Shown here: positions 250 to 32,182 of the stretch, piece by piece | Numbering within the stretch: the first letter of the stretch is position 1 | Layout of the letters: every line of letters begins with the position of its first letter | Assembly (NCBI GenBank): GCA_938023075.1 | Contig: CALHDG010000199.1 | Span: forward strand, 1 to 33,471 | Origin: an uncultured Chitinophagales bacterium | Lineage (GTDB): Bacteria; Bacteroidota; Bacteroidia; Chitinophagales; JAHDHT01 | DNA: 33,471 nucleotides | Reading direction: 5' to 3' | Made by a program: the position numbers and the translations under genes | Notes under the pieces: model-generated | Database searches by the model: none | Seen by the model: only the letters and a program-made list of their open reading frames with translations | Told to the model about the DNA's origin: nothing

Positions 250-337
250 GCAAGGTAATCTAACTTATGTTTTAACTATTTTAGAAGCTATTGAGAAAAT
301 ATGGATTTACACCAAGGATACCAAGTTTAAGTTTTGA
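242..337 (+). pseudogene. HEPN (HepT/DUF86-like) toxin fragment
   Basis: Translation from the ATG at 242 gives 31 residues (MFEQGNLTYVLTILEAIEKI, then WIYTKDTKFKF) before a TGA. This resembles the first helix of HepT/DUF86 HEPN ribonucleases, which are normally about 110-120 residues and carry the RNase motif R-x4-6-H far downstream. The catalytic part is absent, so this is a remnant. The overlap with the upstream MNT stop codon supports the original bicistronic toxin-antitoxin layout. The similarity seems to end near base 310-320, where the next toxin-antitoxin remnant begins, so this is probably a recombination or deletion junction. Confidence 0.6.
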
Positions 338-345
338 CCAAAATA

Positions 346-608
346 TGGTAACTATGATAAAAATCTTCATTGACTACATTTTGGATGTTTACATAGCACA
401 ACCCAATACCAACGAACAAGCAAAGGCTTTAAAGGCTTTTATGGAAGCGCTTGAGATTGACTTTCAAGTTTCAAAACCCAATGGTGAAAAAAACCCTTAT
501 GACCCGGAGTTTATAGCGAAAATTTTGAAAAGTAAGCAGGAATATGAAGTTGGAAATTTCGTAAGTGTAAAAAAGAAAGATCCTCCAAAATTTCTGAGCT
601 TAGAATGA
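346..608 (+). CDS. DUF2683-like antitoxin
   Basis: An 87-residue protein starting at ATG 346 (a second in-frame ATG is at 355; an earlier one at 291 lies in the presumed junction and is less likely). It has the layout of small Bacteroidota antitoxins of the DUF2683-like type: an N-terminal beta strand (MIKIFIDYI), a helix with KALKAFMEALEIDF, and a tail NPYDPEFIAKILKSKQEYE. Such tails bind the toxin partner. The stop codon overlaps the ATG of the next ORF (ATGA at 605-608), typical of an antitoxin-toxin pair. The partner is broken, so this gene may now be an orphan. Confidence 0.6.
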
Positions 609-769
609 TTTATCGGTTAGACTTTACAGCAGGGGCTCAAAAAGACATTGAGTTTGAAACTCGAATAGTTAAAAAAAAATTTGATGAATTGTTGAAAACT
701 TTTTCGCAAAAATTTAGTTTAAAGATAATTAGCGTCTATTTTTGGTTTGAGTGCAACACATTTTATTAA
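605..769 (+). pseudogene. RelE/ParE-family (Txe/YoeB-like) toxin remnant
   Basis: The 54-residue ORF overlaps the antitoxin stop by four bases. Its first ~35 residues (MIYRLDFTAGAQKDIEF, then VKKKFDELLKTF) look like the N-terminal strand and helical hairpin of RelE/YoeB mRNA interferases, which run to about 85-95 residues. From about base 710 the sequence no longer resembles the family, and the arginine/histidine-rich catalytic strands and C-terminal HYDDK-type end are missing. It is read as a toxin cut off at its 3' side where the restriction-modification operon was joined. The family call rests on pattern recognition of a short stretch. Confidence 0.5.
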
Positions 770-787
770 GTTGTGCTATAACAAACA

Positions 788-1930
788 ATGACAGAATTAA
801 ACATACTGGAAAATATTGATTGGGATTTTGCTGAGGCATCAACAAATTCTACGACAAATTCTATGCATCCGTATCCTGCAAAGTTTATTCCGCAGATTCC
901 AAACCATCTTATTCAACAGCTAACAAAAGTGGGAGACACTGTTTACGAACCATTTTTAGGTAGTGGAACAACTGCAGTTGAAGCAAATGTTCTGGGTCGA
1001 AACGCTATTGGAAATGATGTAAATGAATTAGCCGTTTTAATTTCAAAAGTAAAGACAACACCTGTTTCAAATAAAAGGCTTCAAAACCTTGATAGTTTAT
1101 TAAATAAAATTTATAAACATATTGAGTTGTTATATTCGGAAAAGAAAAATAATATTGAAATACCCGATATTACTAACCTTAACTTGTGGTTTATTGATTT
1201 TGTAATTCATGAAATTGTAATCATCAAACAAGAGATTGAAAAACTTGCAGATGAGGATATTAAAGATTTTTGTTTAGTTGCATTATCTGGTATTTTAGTA
1301 AACGTATCACGGCAAGACAGCGATACAAGGTACGTAAGGGTAACTAAAAACATAAATCATTTTGATACCTTCAACAAATTTTCAAAGCAGTTGAACAAAT
1401 TGAGAAAAATTATGATTGCATCGTCTGAAAATATTAAAAATGGAACATCTGTTTTTAAAGTTGAAGACAGTCGGACAGAACATATTTTTGAAGAAAACGT
1501 TGCTGATATTGCCATAACTTCTCCGCCATATCCCAATGCATATGATTATCATTTGTACCATAAATATCGTTTGTTTTGGTTAGGTATGGACCCACTTAAA
1601 TTGAGGAAATTAGAAATAGGAGCTCACGCAGACTATTCAAAGAAAAATGGACCGAATGAATTTGATTTTATGAGAGATATGGAAAAGTGTATGTTAAATA
1701 CAAGTAAAATTTTGAAGAAAGGAAGCTTCTTTATTTTGGTAATTGGAAATTCTATCTTGAAGGGAAGACATATTGAAAACAACAAAATACTTCAACAAGC
1801 GGCTGAAGCAACACCTTTCAATTTTGTAACAGAATTTACTCGAAATATAAAATTAAACAGAAAATCATTTAATCCTAAAATTGGGAATATTAAGCAAGAA
1901 AAAATTCTAATTTTTGAAAACCTAAAGTAG
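788..1930 (+). CDS. DNA amino-methyltransferase (N4-cytosine/N6-adenine), first of a pair
   Basis: A 380-residue SAM-dependent DNA methyltransferase of the N6_N4_Mtase group. Visible motifs: HPYPAKFIPQIP at residues 27-38, the SAM-binding motif EPFLGSGTT at 54-62, an acidic ND after the next strand, and the catalytic TSPPY at 244-248 followed by an aromatic-rich stretch. The order, SAM motif before catalytic motif, is that of a subset of this group. TSPPY points to N4-cytosine or N6-adenine rather than C5 methylation. It is followed after five bases by a second, clearly different methyltransferase and then a PLD-family endonuclease. It therefore most likely protects one strand of an asymmetric restriction site. 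Base composition is AT-rich, as expected for a transferred defence gene. Methylated base and site cannot be read from sequence. Confidence 0.88.
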   Translation: MTELNILENIDWDFAEASTNSTTNSMHPYPAKFIPQIPNHLIQQLTKVGDTVYEPFLGSGTTAVEANVLGRNAIGNDVNELAVLISKVKTTPVSNKRLQNLDSLLNKIYKHIELLYSEKKNNIEIPDITNLNLWFIDFVIHEIVIIKQEIEKLADEDIKDFCLVALSGILVNVSRQDSDTRYVRVTKNINHFDTFNKFSKQLNKLRKIMIASSENIKNGTSVFKVEDSRTEHIFEENVADIAITSPPYPNAYDYHLYHKYRLFWLGMDPLKLRKLEIGAHADYSKKNGPNEFDFMRDMEKCMLNTSKILKKGSFFILVIGNSILKGRHIENNKILQQAAEATPFNFVTEFTRNIKLNRKSFNPKIGNIKQEKILIFENLK

Positions 1931-1935
1931 CAGCC

Positions 1936-3507
1936 ATGTATAAATATCAAATCTATTTTTCGAGGTACAAACTAAGAGATTATGAAAAAAAACTTGCCTT
2001 AAAAGAATTTGAAAATCAGTTTCCTTCAGTTAAAAACAAAATTGTTGAAGAAAAAGGAATTTCATTTTCAACAAATAAGTTGATTGATGAAACTAAATTA
2101 AGAAAGTTAACTTTTTATAGTGAGATTAATTATAGAAATTCAAAGTTAGAAAAATCAAATGTTTTGACAGATCAAGCTTTAATTGAAAATTATCATAATT
2201 TCAAGCCAAATCTTTTTGGTGATTTAAAACCAAACAAATCTAGGGAGATTAGATATTTAACGCATTCCTTACACGAATACAAAGGTAGATTCTATCCACA
2301 GCTTGCAAAAGCACTTATGAATTATGCGGGTATCAAAAAAAGTGATACAGTTTTAGATCCATTTTGCGGTAGTGGAACAACCTTAGTAGAAAGTTTATTA
2401 TTTGGTGCAAATGCAGTTGGTGTTGACATTAATCCTATTGCTTATTTACTTGCAAAATCTAAAGTTAATAGTATCCTGTTAAAACAAAAAGACTTATTAA
2501 AAATCAAGCAAAAAATTGACTCAATCAATGAAGATTCAGGTTGGAAAAAAATAAGTACTAAAGATTACAGCAGTACACTTGACATTGAATATTTACAAAA
2601 TTGGTTCCCCGATTCTAATTTGAGAAAAATTATTGTAATCTTGGAAATTATAAATACAATGTCAAATGAAACTGCGCAGCTTTTATCTAAAGTTGTTTTA
2701 AGTAACCTGCTACGCTCCTTTTCTTTTCAAGATCCAACACAATTAAGAATCAGGCGTAGAAATGACTTGCCGCCTGAAAACCTGATTGAGACATTTAAAA
2801 AAACACTTCTTGAAAAAATTACATGTATCGAAAAATTTATTACGCTCAACCACTTTAACTTACAGTCTGATGTAAAGAATTACTTAGGTGATATTAGAAC
2901 CCTAATGAAAAGTACTAATCTTAAAAAAAATTCAATTGATGTTGTGATTACATCACCACCATATGCAACAGCACTGCCTTATGTTGACACAGACCGCCTT
3001 TCTCTATTTGCATTTGGCTACACCAATAAAAAAAGTTTTAAAAGGTTAGAAAATAGTTTAATCGGCAATAGAGAAATTACAAAATCAAAACGAGTAATAC
3101 TGGATCAAGAGCTTGAAAAAAACTTTGAAAGGTCTATCTTGTCTGAAGAAATTATTACAAAATTGAAAAAGATTTATTTGTTGAATAAAAGTGCTAATGT
3201 TGGTTTTAGAAGAAAAAACAAAGCAGCTTTATTGTATAAATATTTTGTGGATATGGATCAGGGTATAAATCAAGTGTCACAAGTATTAAAGAAAAATAAG
3301 TTTGCTTTTTTTGTGGTAGGTAACAATAGAACAATAGCTGGATCTGAAAGTATTGATATACCAACCGACGATTTCGTTGCCTTAATTGCAGAACAAAATA
3401 ACTTTAAACTAGTTGAAAAAATTTGCATGAGTGTACAAAAGTCATATATGATTCATTCAAAAAATTCTATTAGCAAAGAGTCAATTTTGGTATTAAAAAA
3501 GAAATAA
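1936..3507 (+). CDS. DNA amino-methyltransferase, second of a pair
   Basis: A 523-residue SAM-dependent DNA methyltransferase. The N-terminal ~110 residues are of unknown fold and may hold target recognition. Then come THSLHEYKGRFYPQLAKAL, the SAM-binding motif DPFCGSGTT at 141-149, VDINPIAY after the next strand, and catalytic TSPPY at 339-343. It is longer than its upstream neighbour and not a simple duplicate, although both use the unusual pair of a Pro/Lys/Phe motif before the SAM motif and a late TSPPY. The five-base gap upstream and one-base gap downstream show an operon. Two methyltransferases with one nuclease is the pattern of systems with an asymmetric recognition sequence, where each strand needs its own enzyme. 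Confidence 0.88.
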   Translation: MYKYQIYFSRYKLRDYEKKLALKEFENQFPSVKNKIVEEKGISFSTNKLIDETKLRKLTFYSEINYRNSKLEKSNVLTDQALIENYHNFKPNLFGDLKPNKSREIRYLTHSLHEYKGRFYPQLAKALMNYAGIKKSDTVLDPFCGSGTTLVESLLFGANAVGVDINPIAYLLAKSKVNSILLKQKDLLKIKQKIDSINEDSGWKKISTKDYSSTLDIEYLQNWFPDSNLRKIIVILEIINTMSNETAQLLSKVVLSNLLRSFSFQDPTQLRIRRRNDLPPENLIETFKKTLLEKITCIEKFITLNHFNLQSDVKNYLGDIRTLMKSTNLKKNSIDVVITSPPYATALPYVDTDRLSLFAFGYTNKKSFKRLENSLIGNREITKSKRVILDQELEKNFERSILSEEIITKLKKIYLLNKSANVGFRRKNKAALLYKYFVDMDQGINQVSQVLKKNKFAFFVVGNNRTIAGSESIDIPTDDFVALIAEQNNFKLVEKICMSVQKSYMIHSKNSISKESILVLKKK

Positions 3508-3508
3508 T

Positions 3509-4606
3509 TTGGAACTAACACTTTTAACGCATACTAATACTATAGGTAAAGAAATTACCGAAAATTTAAAGTGTGGTAAATACTCTGATTTTAAAGTTGC
3601 TGTTGCCTACTCAAGGAACTCAGGTATTAGCAGGATTTATAGGGAGCTTTCAAATTTCTCTAATAATGGAGGTAAAACATCTGTTATAGCTGGAATTGAT
3701 CAAAGCAATACATCATATCAAGCATTGGTAAACCTTAAAACTTTTGCAAAAGAAAATCTCTTTGTTCATCACGATAAGAATTTCGACATTACATTTCATC
3801 CTAAGGTTTATATGTTTGGCAATAAAAAAATTGAAAAAATAATTATTGGATCATCCAATCTTACCGCAGGCGGTCTTTTTCTAAATTACGAAGCAAATAT
3901 TGGAGTTACATTTGACAATTCTGAGACCTCAATAACTTTTGAGAGACAAGTTTCAGATTATTGGGAAAGCCTATTAAATGACCAAAATACAATAAAATGT
4001 GAATTAACACTACTCGAGAAATTGTTGCAAAGTGGTTCAGTAGTTGATGAGCAAAAGCAAAAACCTTTTAAAAGCATAATTGAGAAAATCTCAAACGATT
4101 TACCGTTTAAAAAGAAGAAAACATCAAAAATTTTACCACCAATTTCACCTAATTCTACGGTTGTTGTACCTCCAATTAAATCAAAGTTTTTAATGACACT
4201 TTCGGGTTTTGATGTCAGCGCAAAAAGTCAAGACCCAGTTATCCTCATTCCTATAAAAGCGTTAAGAGCAATGCCAGTGTTCTGGAATTTCCCAACTTTA
4301 TATACCGATTCGGGAGCAGGATATCCTCAACTATATGCATCTGCTAACATTCATATTGATGGAAAACTCATGAGTGGTCAGCACATTCGAATATATTATT
4401 ACGATAAGAAAAAAGAATTTCGCTTGCAATGTGAGCCAATTAAACGCAACGGAAATAAAGGTGATATCATTTCAATATACAAGCACCCAAATAAACCATT
4501 GGAATTTGATATTGAATTAATTAGAACTGGTACTAAAGGATTCAAAAAAAATAAACTACTATTGACAAACAAGGTAAGTACACAAAAGTTCTTTAATTAT
4601 TTTTGA
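3509..4606 (+). CDS. PLD-family restriction endonuclease (BfiI/NgoFVII type)
   Basis: A 365-residue protein. Residues 1-160 form a phospholipase-D-like nuclease domain with a single catalytic set: H97-x-K99 (FHPKVYMFG) and GSSNLT at 114-119, followed by E128 in NYEANI. Enzymes of this family dimerise to build one metal-independent active site. After a Lys-rich linker (about 185-210), residues 218-360 look like the B3-like DNA-recognition domain found at the C-terminus of BfiI and NgoFVII. The start is probably TTG at 3509, one base after the stop of the second methyltransferase, which suggests translational coupling and keeps nuclease output low. No in-frame ATG exists early enough to keep the N-terminal strand. 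Catalytic residues are intact, so the enzyme may be active. The B3 call is by resemblance. Confidence 0.82.
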   Translation: MELTLLTHTNTIGKEITENLKCGKYSDFKVAVAYSRNSGISRIYRELSNFSNNGGKTSVIAGIDQSNTSYQALVNLKTFAKENLFVHHDKNFDITFHPKVYMFGNKKIEKIIIGSSNLTAGGLFLNYEANIGVTFDNSETSITFERQVSDYWESLLNDQNTIKCELTLLEKLLQSGSVVDEQKQKPFKSIIEKISNDLPFKKKKTSKILPPISPNSTVVVPPIKSKFLMTLSGFDVSAKSQDPVILIPIKALRAMPVFWNFPTLYTDSGAGYPQLYASANIHIDGKLMSGQHIRIYYYDKKKEFRLQCEPIKRNGNKGDIISIYKHPNKPLEFDIELIRTGTKGFKKNKLLLTNKVSTQKFFNYF

Positions 4607-10837: not shown

Positions 10838-11887
10838 GTGGAATTGATAAAACAAATTGAAGCCTTACTAAGTTTTACCACTACCAAAACCCTTCGCCCT
10901 GCTGTATTAGATTTAGTTGCTGAACTTAACGAAAACAAATCTACAACCATTCAACCGAATACAGAAAGTGATCTTACAGTAAAAAAAAGTCATCTAATTA
11001 AAGACTTAGAACAGATTTACGAATCGTACACCATTGAACGGGCACATCACTATTGCACACAACTAATTAAAGGCTTATCTAAAACTAAATACAGTAATTA
11101 TAATGATATTAATTTAAACAGATGGAAAGAATACGAAGATATTGAAACGGATAGTCTGTGGATTTTTAAAAACCGGGATAGAAGCGGAGCACATAATAGT
11201 AAATATTGGGGTAACTATATTCCACAAATTCCCAACCAATTATTGAGGCGTTATACTAAACCAAACCATTGGGTATTAGACCCTTTTTTGGGTAGTGGCA
11301 CTACTTTAATTGAATGTAAAAAATTGGGCAGAAATGGTATGGGTATCGAACTACAAAAAGAAGTAGCTGATATTGCCGAAAAAAATATAGATAGTCAGTT
11401 CGATTTAGTTACAAAAGAAATTCAAACCGAAATAATTCATGCGAATAGTGCCACTGTTGATTTAAAACCAATGATGGAAAAACTACAAATCCCTAACTTT
11501 CATTTTAATATCTATCATCCTCCCTATTGGGATATTATTCAATTTAGTGATTCTGAAAATGATCTTTCTAATGCGGCAACTTTAGATGAATTTCTAAACC
11601 AATTTAAAGCAGTGTTAAATAATACGCTTCCTCATCTTGAAAAAAACCGCTTTTTTGCTATTGTAATTAGCGACAAGTATGAAAAAGGGGAATGGATACC
11701 ACTTGGTTTTAAAACCATGGAAATGGTTCAACAATTGGGGCATCTGTTAAAATCAATTATTGTAAAAAATTTTGATACTACCAAGGGCAAACAAAACCAA
11801 GAAGGCTTGTGGCGATACCGAGCACTCGCCGGAGGCTTTTATATTTTTAAACATGAATATATTTTTTTATTTCAAAAGAAAAACTAA
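10838..11887 (+). CDS. Orphan DNA methyltransferase with HPPY motif
   Basis: A 349-residue DNA methyltransferase of the N4/N6 amino group. It has KYWGNYIPQIPNQLLRRYT, the SAM motif DPFLGSGTT at 148-156, GIELQKEVADIAEKN after the next strand, and a catalytic HPPYWD at 227-232. HPPY is a less common form of the (D/N/S)PP(Y/F/W) motif. The N-terminal ~100 residues are helical and may read DNA. The start is GTG at 10838. There is no nuclease gene beside it, unlike the pair at 788-3507, so it is either a regulatory/orphan enzyme or what remains of a lost system. The layout resembles the first methyltransferase of the left island, but the sequences differ widely. Confidence 0.8.
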   Translation: MELIKQIEALLSFTTTKTLRPAVLDLVAELNENKSTTIQPNTESDLTVKKSHLIKDLEQIYESYTIERAHHYCTQLIKGLSKTKYSNYNDINLNRWKEYEDIETDSLWIFKNRDRSGAHNSKYWGNYIPQIPNQLLRRYTKPNHWVLDPFLGSGTTLIECKKLGRNGMGIELQKEVADIAEKNIDSQFDLVTKEIQTEIIHANSATVDLKPMMEKLQIPNFHFNIYHPPYWDIIQFSDSENDLSNAATLDEFLNQFKAVLNNTLPHLEKNRFFAIVISDKYEKGEWIPLGFKTMEMVQQLGHLLKSIIVKNFDTTKGKQNQEGLWRYRALAGGFYIFKHEYIFLFQKKN

Positions 11888-17360: not shown

Positions 17361-17738
17361 ATGACAATGAAAAAATTTGATTTAGAAGACTGGCTAATAG
17401 ATTTTTCAGTTATGATTATCAAAATTTCAATAAATATGCTCAAATCAAAAACGGGAAATCATTTGTCAGGTCAAGTTGTTCGTTCGGGAGCTTCGGTTGC
17501 TTTGAATTATGGTGAGGCTCAAAGTGCTGAATCTAGAAAGGATTTCATTCATAAGATGAAAATTGTTTTAAAAGAATTAAGAGAAACCTATGTTTGTTTG
17601 AAGATTATTGATAAAAGTCAATTGTTTAAAGATACAAACTTACTTAATAAAGTAAAGGTTGAAAATAATGAATTAATATCCATTTTTGTAAAAAGCGTTG
17701 CTACGGCAGAAGCTAATTACAGTAAACAGAAAAGTTAA
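17361..17738 (+). CDS. Four-helix-bundle protein (23S rRNA IVS / Avd-like)
   Basis: A 125-residue all-helical protein of the family first found in 23S rRNA intervening sequences, related in fold to the Avd accessory protein of diversity-generating retroelements. Typical features are a first helix with DLIDFSV-like residues, SGQVVRSGASVALNYGEAQSAES at about 35-57 (the helix-2 signature, here RSGASVALNYGEA), KMKIVLKELRETYVCLKII, and a charged end. The gene lies between the two halves of one exporter and is bordered by related short repeats, so it looks like an inserted cassette. No reverse transcriptase is nearby, so a DGR role is unlikely. Function in this setting is unknown. ATG at 17361 or 17367 may be the start. 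Confidence 0.85.
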   Translation: MTMKKFDLEDWLIDFSVMIIKISINMLKSKTGNHLSGQVVRSGASVALNYGEAQSAESRKDFIHKMKIVLKELRETYVCLKIIDKSQLFKDTNLLNKVKVENNELISIFVKSVATAEANYSKQKS

Positions 17739-19811: not shown

Positions 19812-21167
19812 ATGAAGGAACCAAATGTAAAATTTATAGTTAAAGATTTTAGGGCTGTTGCCAATGCCGAAATTGCTTTAGATGGGATTTCGGTATTGAC
19901 CGGGGAGAATGGCTGTGGGAAGAGTACGATTTCGAAGTTACTATACAGTGTTTTATATAACTTATTCAACTTTGATGTGATTATCGATCTTAGTGTTCCG
20001 TATTCAAATTTGAATGAAAAGTTAATTAATAGCACAAGAAAATTATATAAAGAATTTCCAGATTCAATAAGTCCTGAAATCAATATTTATGAAAATCTAA
20101 CAAATAAAGAAATACAAATAGTATTAACATACTTAGTCAAATATTTAGGAGAAAATCAAAAATTTCAAGATAATAATAGATTAAAGGGAATGTTGATAGA
20201 GAGCTTTTCTAAAATGCTAAATAGTGCAGAAGAAGTTTTATTAAATATTGTTGGTGAGACTCCTAACGAAAAATTAAAAAATGATTCCTTAGAAAATATC
20301 TCTCAAAATATCCTTAAAACTTATATTAACATCGATATTGTTGAAAAAAAGATTAGGAAATTGAAGCCGGCAAAACTTTTATATGAAGATCTTAGCTTTA
20401 TTTATTCAGATAATGATATTGAACAGAAACTAGAATTGATCGAATTTAAAGAAAAAATCATTAATAAAATTGACAATAAAATTTTAGATCTGCTGACGAT
20501 AGAAAATACATTTTATTATGACACTCCTTATGCTCTTTCTGGAAATGAAGATGACCAATATTTTCATTGGACAAGTTTAAACGACTCTTTCCTAAACAAA
20601 AAAGATTCAAGAAATAAAAAAGAAGTCCCCAGCTTTATTAATAAGTTAAGTAAAGAAATATTAAATGGAGGAGTTGACTTTGAATATTTTGAAAAAATCA
20701 ATGGGCATCCGCTAACACACTCAAAACGGGCTAATTTTTTGTATAATAGAATTGATGGACAAGTATTTGATTTGTTAGATTCTGCGACAGGTTTAAGATC
20801 GTTTGCTATACTTCAGTTACTTTTACAAAAAGGACTTCTTTCAGAAAAAACCCTTTTAATCATAGACGAACCCGAAGCCCACCTCCACCCTCAATGGATA
20901 GTAGAATATGCCCGATTAATTGTTTTGTTAAATAAAGAATTGGGGGTTAAATTTTTAATCTCCAGCCATAATCCGGATATGATTAGTGCTATAAAATACA
21001 TTGCCGAAAAAGAACAAGTGGATGAAAAGTTAAATTTCTATTTGGCTGAAAAAACAGCAGAAGCATTTAAGTATAATTTTGTAAACCTTCATACCAATAT
21101 TGAACCCATTTTCAAATCGTTCAATATTGCTTTAGATAGAATTGATGAATATGGTGCAGTTGAATAG
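19812..21167 (+). CDS. AAA/ABC-type ATPase of a two-gene module
   Basis: A 451-residue cytoplasmic ATPase of the SMC/ABC-like AAA class used in OLD-, RloA- and Septu-type systems. Walker A GENGCGKST is at 31-39, a long helical and acidic middle section (about 70-260) takes the place of a coiled coil, a signature-like DSATGLRSFA begins at 323, Walker B LLIIDEPEAHLHP has D352-E353, and the switch histidine is H386 (SSHNPD). The C-terminus ends NIEPIFKSFNIALDRIDEYG. No TOPRIM or HNH domain is fused to it. The next gene overlaps its 3' end by 23 bases, so the two are translated together. By analogy the ATPase would sense and the partner act. AT-rich composition suggests transfer. The exact subfamily is not recognised. 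Confidence 0.8.
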   Translation: MKEPNVKFIVKDFRAVANAEIALDGISVLTGENGCGKSTISKLLYSVLYNLFNFDVIIDLSVPYSNLNEKLINSTRKLYKEFPDSISPEINIYENLTNKEIQIVLTYLVKYLGENQKFQDNNRLKGMLIESFSKMLNSAEEVLLNIVGETPNEKLKNDSLENISQNILKTYINIDIVEKKIRKLKPAKLLYEDLSFIYSDNDIEQKLELIEFKEKIINKIDNKILDLLTIENTFYYDTPYALSGNEDDQYFHWTSLNDSFLNKKDSRNKKEVPSFINKLSKEILNGGVDFEYFEKINGHPLTHSKRANFLYNRIDGQVFDLLDSATGLRSFAILQLLLQKGLLSEKTLLIIDEPEAHLHPQWIVEYARLIVLLNKELGVKFLISSHNPDMISAIKYIAEKEQVDEKLNFYLAEKTAEAFKYNFVNLHTNIEPIFKSFNIALDRIDEYGAVE

Positions 21168-21705
21168 TTGGCAATATTGTGAAGCTTCTACCAAATCGCA
21201 TCCTTTAGCCAAAGTGTATACCAAACATCTTCAAAGCATAAATGAAATACTGTTTAAAGAAGGAGTTAAAACGGAACCTTTCAAAAATGAAGTGGCATTG
21301 AATTTGGATGAGGTAGAAAAAACAAAAGCTTCAAATGAGAAAAGATCGAAAAGAAAAACGGTTGATCTGTCTTTTTGTGTTACTAAATTATTAAAAAACG
21401 AACGAGCTTCTAAACCTAAAACTGTTCTTACAGAATTGAAGTTGAATTTAAAAAGTAGAAATAACATAAACGTAGATGCTAAGGATTTAGACGATAAGGT
21501 AAATCACTCCATTGCTTTGTTAAGCAGAGAAATTCCAATTTTTAGAAAATATTTATTAGTGATAAATGATACATTATCTTCTCAATCAGAAAATAGACTC
21601 AAACGAAAACTATCCAACAATCCAAAATACAAAGTGTTGAGTGTTAAAGAATTTCATCAAAGCTATTTTAAATATAATAGACAATCTATTGAAAATACAG
21701 CTTAA
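21145..21705 (+). CDS. Partner of the ATPase, possible PD-(D/E)XK nuclease
   Basis: A 186-residue protein with ATG at 21145 (or 21151), starting inside the ATPase gene. An N-terminal helical part (YTKHLQSINEILFKEG) leads to a Lys/Arg-rich stretch, then D74 in TVDLSF and E97-x-K99 in VLTELKLN, then helix KVNHSIALLS and strand RKYLLVIND. The order D ... ExK within strand-strand-helix-strand fits a PD-(D/E)XK nuclease core; this is inference from a weak motif, not a recognised family. No HNH, TOPRIM (DUF4435/RloB) or HEPN motif is visible, which separates it from Septu, PARIS and Rlo/AbiL partners. Its 3' end overlaps the convergent S41 peptidase gene by 20 bases. Confidence 0.7.
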   Translation: MNMVQLNSWQYCEASTKSHPLAKVYTKHLQSINEILFKEGVKTEPFKNEVALNLDEVEKTKASNEKRSKRKTVDLSFCVTKLLKNERASKPKTVLTELKLNLKSRNNINVDAKDLDDKVNHSIALLSREIPIFRKYLLVINDTLSSQSENRLKRKLSNNPKYKVLSVKEFHQSYFKYNRQSIENTA

Positions 21706-30880: not shown

Positions 30881-32182
30881 TTAAACTAACTCTTCCTCTT
30901 CTCTTCTTTTGAAAAGAGTAGCCAATTCACCAAAATTGCTCATTGCAACAGCACCATAACTCATTAAAGCCAACATTAAAGTAATTAAACCCCACTGGCT
31001 TAAAGTTGGAATATCAGTTGTAGGTGGTGGTTCAACACCACCACATGCGGCACTTTCATTGGTTGCTTCTCCAACGCTAATGCAACTGTCAGCCGCAGTT
31101 GCTTCTGCAATTGCAGTTTCAATTGAACATTGTTGATAGCCACTACCAGAACAAGTAATTGTACCATCTCCATTGCAAGTTAAAGTAACCCAACCATTGA
31201 AAGTTTCGCCACCGGATTCAAATTGAACTGCAACAGCAGTTATCGGATTAGTTCCACCTGTAGCAAGTACACTTGAACCATAGTAAGGTCCTGCTAATAA
31301 ATAAGGACCTGGAAGGGTTGCATCAGGTTGAGGAGGAACAGACGCAGTAGCCATTGCACTTAGTGTTAAATATGGTCCGGCAACAAAATAACCACCATAA
31401 ACACTGGCAGTACTAGTAGAACAAGTTATACCACTAACAACAGTAGAGGCGGTAGCCATAGCTGTAACAGTAGTTGTAGGGAAATCATACCGAACACCAC
31501 CAACAGCCTGTATAGCGTAGGCACTTACTATAGCATAATTTGAACCAACAAATGACGAAGTACCGACACCTGTTACGCCTGGTGCAGAGTCAATAACACC
31601 GCATACACCAGTACCAGTTGCCGATAGACCAACAATTTGGTTTGAACCCAAACCAGTAACAAAACAATAATTAACTACAGCATAAGTGGCATAATAAACA
31701 TTAGTAAAAGCACTAACATAACTAATCATAGCACTTGCCGCAGCAGTGGCTGAAGTTACAAGAGGACCTATCGTTAGCATTGAGCCACCTGCAAATACAA
31801 CAGTACCTCCAGCACCATCAGAAAGGGCAAACAATGAGCAACCGTAATATGGAATTGCCGTAAAAGCTTGCGAAGGAATAGACGCTTGAGCATACGCATA
31901 CGCAACAGGTGCTGTACCAACCGGTATAGTACCTATAGGAATCATAGTGGATCCAGTACCTAAGGTGGAAATGAAGGATCCCCCAAAAATTTGAACATCA
32001 TCCGTACCGTCACCGTCAATATCTAAACCTACCGGCGCACCTGGGGCGGCTGTTTCACCTGCACATTGAGCAGCAGTTTCTGGTGTATTTGCTAAGAACG
32101 CCGCTGCTAAAGCACCGTAAGAAAGTAACTTTGCACTTTTATTATCAACTATCTTATCTTTTATGTATTTCTTTATTTTCAT
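30881..32182 (-). CDS. Surface protein with IPTL-CTERM-like sorting signal
   Basis: A 433-residue exported protein. An extended N-terminus (about 40 residues, with LLSYGALAAAFLANT) ends at a probable cleavage AAQC. Near the mature start, DIDGDGTDDVQI is a calcium-binding loop of dockerin/EF-hand type. The long middle is Ala/Ser/Thr/Gly/Val-rich with aromatic repeats (YFVAGPYLTLSAMATAS, YLLAGPYYGSSVLATG). The C-terminus has PPPTTDIPTLSQWGLITLML, a membrane helix, then a long tail ending KRREEEELV. IPTLSQWG is the IPTL-CTERM sorting motif, cleaved by exosortase-type enzymes. The tail of about 24 residues after the helix is longer than the usual few basic residues. It is co-transcribed with the upstream 145-residue gene (15-base gap). 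Confidence 0.82.
   Translation of the reverse strand: MKIKKYIKDKIVDNKSAKLLSYGALAAAFLANTPETAAQCAGETAAPGAPVGLDIDGDGTDDVQIFGGSFISTLGTGSTMIPIGTIPVGTAPVAYAYAQASIPSQAFTAIPYYGCSLFALSDGAGGTVVFAGGSMLTIGPLVTSATAAASAMISYVSAFTNVYYATYAVVNYCFVTGLGSNQIVGLSATGTGVCGVIDSAPGVTGVGTSSFVGSNYAIVSAYAIQAVGGVRYDFPTTTVTAMATASTVVSGITCSTSTASVYGGYFVAGPYLTLSAMATASVPPQPDATLPGPYLLAGPYYGSSVLATGGTNPITAVAVQFESGGETFNGWVTLTCNGDGTITCSGSGYQQCSIETAIAEATAADSCISVGEATNESAACGGVEPPPTTDIPTLSQWGLITLMLALMSYGAVAMSNFGELATLFKRREEEELV

Follow-up and report, generated by a model that had tools for sequence, protein, structure and literature searches.

The window, a 33,471-nucleotide stretch from an uncultured Chitinophagales bacterium (contig CALHDG010000199.1), carries two overlapping genes that likely make up a complete module, in which an OLD/SMC-like ABC ATPase is paired with a PD-(D/E)XK nuclease. 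The module is broadly WonAB-like, has a nuclease family of its own, and probably works by the general mechanism proposed below. WonAB, the WASA OLD-ABC ATPase nuclease of the V. cholerae WASA-1 prophage, was described in 2025 (PMC12137116). Our analysis shows that the two genes form a conserved, co-evolving pair and that the small partner protein carries a catalytic residue pattern, and it provides predicted folds for both proteins. An antiphage function of the pair in the window organism is held with less confidence than the module and its general mechanism.

Both open reading frames lie where a preliminary description of this DNA had placed them, including the 23-base overlap and the 186-residue length of the partner (Table 1). 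An alternative TTG start at 21142 would lengthen the partner by one residue. The pair is flanked by an ABC exporter pair on one side and an S41 peptidase gene on the other, again as described before, and the end of the peptidase gene overlaps the end of the partner gene, tail to tail. Several paralogues of this peptidase were noted. At a GC content of 0.29, the pair lies below the window as a whole (0.34), the peptidase gene (0.37), and the exporter gene (0.39), which bears out the AT-richness remarked on earlier. Elsewhere in the window, two type II-like DNA methyltransferases (PADLOC E 1e-76 and 2e-69) are found in the likely restriction-modification island, together with a DUF2683 protein and a PLD-domain relative of NgoFVII-type restriction enzymes, and the gene of the Ala/Thr/Gly-rich protein adjoins that of a small, probably secreted protein.

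Table 1. Coordinates of the gene pair and of other features in the window.
Feature	Position	Strand	Basis and remarks
OLD/SMC-like ABC ATPase gene	19812..21167	+	ATG start, 451 aa; presumed sensor/licensing subunit
PD-(D/E)XK nuclease-like effector (partner) gene	21145..21705	+	ATG start, 186 aa; D55, E58, D74, E97, K99, K118
ATPase/partner gene overlap	21145..21167	+	23 bases
Likely restriction-modification island	291-4606	+	Pfam, PADLOC
DNA methyltransferase gene	10838-11887	+	PADLOC type II, 2e-133; no obvious restriction gene adjoining
Four-helix 23S rRNA-intervening-sequence-type protein	17361-17738	+	PF05635, 1.6e-12; between two ABC exporter genes
433-residue Ala/Thr/Gly-rich protein, probably secreted	30881-32182	-	C-terminal tail sorting-signal-like (DIPTLSQWGLI...)

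The ATPase, an OLD/SMC-type enzyme, carries a Walker A motif (GENGCGKST, with K37), a Walker B motif (LLIIDEPE, with E353), and an H-loop histidine (H386), while its signature motif is degenerate and reads ATGLRS instead of LSGG. Such a degenerate signature is a trait of OLD/RecF-type ATPases. The earlier statement that all motifs are present thus holds for Walker A, Walker B, and the H-loop and was slightly generous with respect to the signature. In Pfam, the protein matches AAA_15 (7e-15) and AAA_21 (1.5e-12); its best PADLOC match is HEC-02A (3.4e-23), and PD-T4-4_A is matched as well (3.2e-12). The same breadth is seen throughout the family, since the PADLOC models HEC-02A, AriA, PtuA, PD-T4-4_A, and Old match all 15 family ATPases scanned. 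In the predicted structure (pTM 0.73, with residues 63-156 largely poorly predicted), the best solved-structure matches are the heads of SMC, cohesin, and Rad50 (Z 16.3 for an SMC head), and PtuA of Septu and retron Ec78 follow with Z 13.6-13.7.

The partner is not findable by its own sequence. A single-sequence search of 395 genomes returned, besides the partner itself, only chance-level matches (E 0.02-0.1), and the search of plasmids, phages, and viral contigs returned no matches. The search was therefore made with the ATPase, and the neighboring gene was then read. Its seed was G347, a relative of the same phylum with a 43% identical ATPase, located on a contig of Parabacteroides acidifaciens (L022 and L030, which are the same contig). 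A two-sequence profile of the window and G347 ATPases retrieved from public genomes 16 relatives that cover the greater part of the ATPase (L027-L042), including two incomplete ones, L034 at a contig end and the frameshifted L039. Apart from one cyanobacterial bin and one planctomycete bin, all hosts are Bacteroidota. The ATPases of the window-pair clade are distinguished by a conserved C-terminal tail, IFxSFNIAxDRIxxYG.

A partner homologue lies directly downstream of the ATPase gene in 15 of these 16 relatives, the sole exception being the planctomycete bin (L041). Hosts of the partner include Aureispira, Flavobacterium, and Algibacter species, Chitinophagaceae, Bacteroidales, Xylanibacter, Parabacteroides, Porphyromonadaceae, and the cyanobacterial bin, where the partner gene is frameshifted; L033 is the locus of Flavobacterium denitrificans. 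The homologues of the two genes thus occur together, as the preliminary description had supposed. Moreover, searches with the full-length ATPase and with the partner profile hit the same 2 of the 395 genomes of the phylum, side by side. Pairwise distances of ATPases and partners across 12 loci are correlated (Mantel r 0.77), a value reached in 1 of 20,000 permutations. In the relatives, 11-20 bases are shared by the two genes or 1-3 bases separate them, and this overlap or near-abutment suggests translational coupling. Some loci are damaged. L030 and L031 contain a disrupted small gene beside an intact ATPase gene. In P. acidifaciens (L022:2801-3025, on the L030 contig), the whole nuclease core is lost internally next to an open ATPase gene, leaving a 74-aa remnant (P0006) whose middle is gone and which still matches the family profile (3e-9); judged by its sequence, this locus is a natural knock-out of the partner. 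In L039, a bin in which an assembly error is possible, a partner that is mostly open follows a broken ATPase frame.

The genes around the pair vary from genome to genome and are often housekeeping genes, such as the NusA/IF2 operon beside L030 and the thrS-infC-rplT region around L039 (gene names assigned by eye). Tyrosine integrases occur within ~3 kb of L036, L037, and L042. L042 also adjoins Mrr-type and type III restriction genes, an AbiLi/AbiLii pair adjoins L035, and a FRG-domain defense candidate adjoins L029, while only a handful of the 103 flanking proteins strongly match defense models. Varied flanks, integrases, and few defense neighbors point to a portable cassette that resides in defense islands only sometimes. 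The portable two-gene module proposed earlier is thereby upheld by conserved co-occurrence, varied flanks, and three integrase-associated loci; defense genes lie near L029, L035, and L042, but the usual surroundings are housekeeping genes rather than clear defense islands, which counts against a defense role. These surroundings, together with the resemblance of the ATPase head to SMC, cohesin, and Rad50, would also suit an SbcCD- or RecF-type machine that repairs or processes damaged or replicating chromosomal DNA and has no immune role. We regard such a repair pair as unlikely, since the distribution within the phylum is very patchy yet reaches distant phyla, integrases and low GC accompany the genes, and P. 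acidifaciens has naturally lost the nuclease core.

The tight gene overlap and the disruption of the small gene beside an intact ATPase gene in L030 and L031 could likewise be expected if a nuclease toxin were neutralized by the ATPase and the pair served mainly its own maintenance, in the manner of a toxin-antitoxin system. This arrangement is improbable: WonB is toxic only in the presence of active WonA, upon which translation stops and genomic DNA is left intact, and simple sequestration of WonB by WonA is ruled out (PMC12137116); further, the possibly misassembled L039 combines a broken ATPase frame with a mostly open partner.

Evidence for the nature of the partner comes from an alignment of 14 partners (profile A3). 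Only D55, E58, D74, E97, and K118 are conserved in at least 13 of the 14 sequences. D74 and E97 are invariant in all 14, position 99 is lysine in seven and arginine in seven, and D55, D74, E97, and K118 are invariant in the family. The other partners are 22-41% identical to the window copy, and conservation confined to catalytic positions amid such divergence argues for an active enzyme. Read from the alignment, D55, E58, D74, E97, and K118 together with K/R99 correspond to the PD-(D/E)XK active-site set, and the arrangement of D74, E97, and K99, given its conservation across 14 homologues, is not a chance pattern. The preliminary description had located D74 and E97-x-K99 exactly. In three loci (L036:7298-8080, L037:7298-8128, and L040:4363-5145), the partners are longer, with ~260-276 residues, and have a C-terminal extension of ~90 residues in common.

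The AlphaFold model of the partner is confident (mean pLDDT 88.6, pTM 0.85). D74 opens strand 75-82, E97 and K99 close strand 92-99, K118 lies within helix 112-126, and D55 and E58 lie within helix 54-64. Nearly all top solved structures matched by VIA-align are PD-(D/E)XK enzymes with low Z scores (at most 5.1): Card1 (5.1), EcoO109I (4.8), Cdn1 (4.7), FokI and BspD6I (both 4.6), the XisH family (4.5), and Can2 (4.3), with PaqCI, BstEII, MunI, EcoRII, Mus81-Eme1, Cap4, and HamA among the further rows. Foldseek yields no significant match (best E 0.25). Consequently, the fold evidence backs the motif evidence and is insufficient by itself. Among viral proteins, no structure matched significantly, and profile A3 gave only a chance match to PDB sequences. 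No match of the partner lies above the Pfam cut-off, none was accepted in NCBIfam, PHROGs, PADLOC, or PDB sequences, and a Pfam match to CTD11 with an E-value of 0.043 falls below the cut-off and was set aside. Taken together, the catalytic-only conservation and the predicted structure support the reading of the partner as PD-(D/E)XK nuclease-like that the preliminary description had offered.

The substitution of arginine for the classical catalytic lysine in half of the homologues speaks against a nuclease. Arginine at position 99 in half of the family together with an invariant K118 suggests that K118 is able to supply the catalytic lysine. That the partner instead retains a nuclease fold without cleavage and serves the ATPase as an adaptor that binds nucleic acid, as the arginine in 7 of the 14 homologues and the distant pair L051 with its patternless partner might indicate, has little probability in view of this possible substitute lysine and of D55, D74, E97, and K118 staying invariant despite the divergence of the family. 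Within the nuclease reading, the workings of the active site can be tested clearly through the alternation of lysine and arginine beside an invariant helix lysine. Tentatively, we propose that the partner may found a new PD-(D/E)XK family in which the lysine has moved to K118 in the helix and position 99 is free for lysine or arginine, and that it might be the effector of an unnamed, Bacteroidota-centered antiphage system that has a trigger or nucleic-acid target of its own.

More distant ATPases, found in prophages, an Acinetobacter plasmid, and a phage scaffold, are accompanied by a different partner of 190-215 residues with the pattern KSxDxLF...YFIEFKxG...K. The profile of the nuclease partner of these distant, prophage-borne pairs (A5) aligns with A3 (probability 81, E 1.2e-5), with D55 facing D47, D74 facing D66, E97 facing E79, K99 facing K81, and K118 facing K93. 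The partner of L023 is HEC-02B according to PADLOC and carries a D...ExK stretch, while HNH partners of the Septu type stand beside other distant relatives (L065, L067, and others). This variety of partners among ATPase relatives indicates that the ATPase superfamily exchanges effectors. The small partner at L051:6313-6888 has no recognizable D and ExK pattern and is possibly inactive or a different effector.

By analogy with WonAB, the pair probably acts by abortive infection, with the ATPase as sensor of the infection and the nuclease as the effector that it licenses. The ATPase would dimerize via its head and carry the nuclease on its C-terminal extension. Sensing of phage infection, or of foreign or damaged DNA, would license the nuclease, which would then cut nucleic acid (DNA or, in line with the proposal for WonB, RNA); this cutting would shut down the cell and thereby stop the infection. 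The features that we infer from WonAB are the sensing and licensing steps, the place where the nuclease docks, the abortive end of the infection, and the possible RNA target. In the literature, we found no report of an antiphage test for the window-pair clade.

Several known systems likewise pair or fuse a member of the ABC ATPase superfamily with a small effector, namely Septu (PtuAB), PARIS (AriAB), AbiL/RloAB, and Gabija. Their effectors are HNH, DUF4435/TOPRIM, RloB, and TOPRIM proteins, respectively, whereas the window partner is PD-(D/E)XK-like. The partner shows no HNH match or motif (Pfam, PADLOC, sequence), no DUF4435/AriB match (Pfam, PADLOC), and no AbiLii match (PADLOC). It thus differs from the effectors of Septu, PARIS, and AbiL/RloAB, as the preliminary description had judged by eye. 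More generally, Pfam and PADLOC contain no confident match of the partner to the effector family of a named system. The PADLOC candidate system HEC-02 is closer, as HEC-02A is the best match of the ATPase and the HEC-02B-type partner of L023 has the D...ExK stretch, but the partners of the window, L027, L028, L036, and L040 have no HEC-02B match at E 1. In PD-T4-4, PD-T4-4_A matches the ATPase and the operon organization is similar (PMC12137116), and some PD-T4-4-like operons have a distinct nuclease (PMC12137116). The partner has no PADLOC match at E 1, in outputs from which the PD-T4-4_B model itself is absent. Neither HEC-02 nor PD-T4-4 was adopted as a name, because only the ATPase fits and the partner is without a match.

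The predicted operon of an OLD-ABC ATPase and a novel REase (Krishnan et al, 2020, cited in PMC12137116), with Anaerovibrio lipolyticus as the named example, resembles the window pair, as far as its description there goes, in gene layout and in the predicted fold type of both parts. WonAB is related to this operon and to PD-T4-4 (PMC12137116). In view of these three layouts, the preliminary label of a candidate undescribed module is only partly right: the architecture has been described, and it is the nuclease family and the Bacteroidota-centered clade that lie outside current models, although the 2020 survey may already include this clade. The effector is missed by present defense databases, and current surveys thus undercount such systems; profiles A3 and A4 could be converted directly into a detection model.

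In WonAB, the OLD-type ABC ATPase is modeled as a dimer with the PD-(D/E)xK nuclease predicted on its C-terminal extensions, both the ATPase residues of WonA and K71 of WonB are required for defense against ICP1, and RNA is the proposed target of WonB (PMC12137116). The window pair shares the two-gene operon with an OLD-type ABC ATPase gene ahead of that for a small PD-(D/E)xK nuclease, the deviating ABC motifs, the C-terminal extension on the ATPase, and an H-loop histidine 33 residues past the Walker B glutamate (E300/H333 in WonA, E353/H386 in the window). It differs in the distance between Walker A lysine and Walker B glutamate (266 residues in WonA, 316 in the window ATPase) and in the effector, as WonB has 16.1 kDa and the motif lysine K71, whereas the window partner has 186 aa, K/R99, and the invariant K118. 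Viral scans for WonAB returned no locus with the published K34-E300-H333 spacing and a PD-(D/E)XK partner. Compared with the published description of WonAB, the window pair is WonAB-like by anatomy, and we do not apply the name. WonAB has been placed in an uncharacterized family of ABC-ATPase sensors with nuclease effectors (PMC12137116), and the clade described here extends this family to Bacteroidota and beyond.
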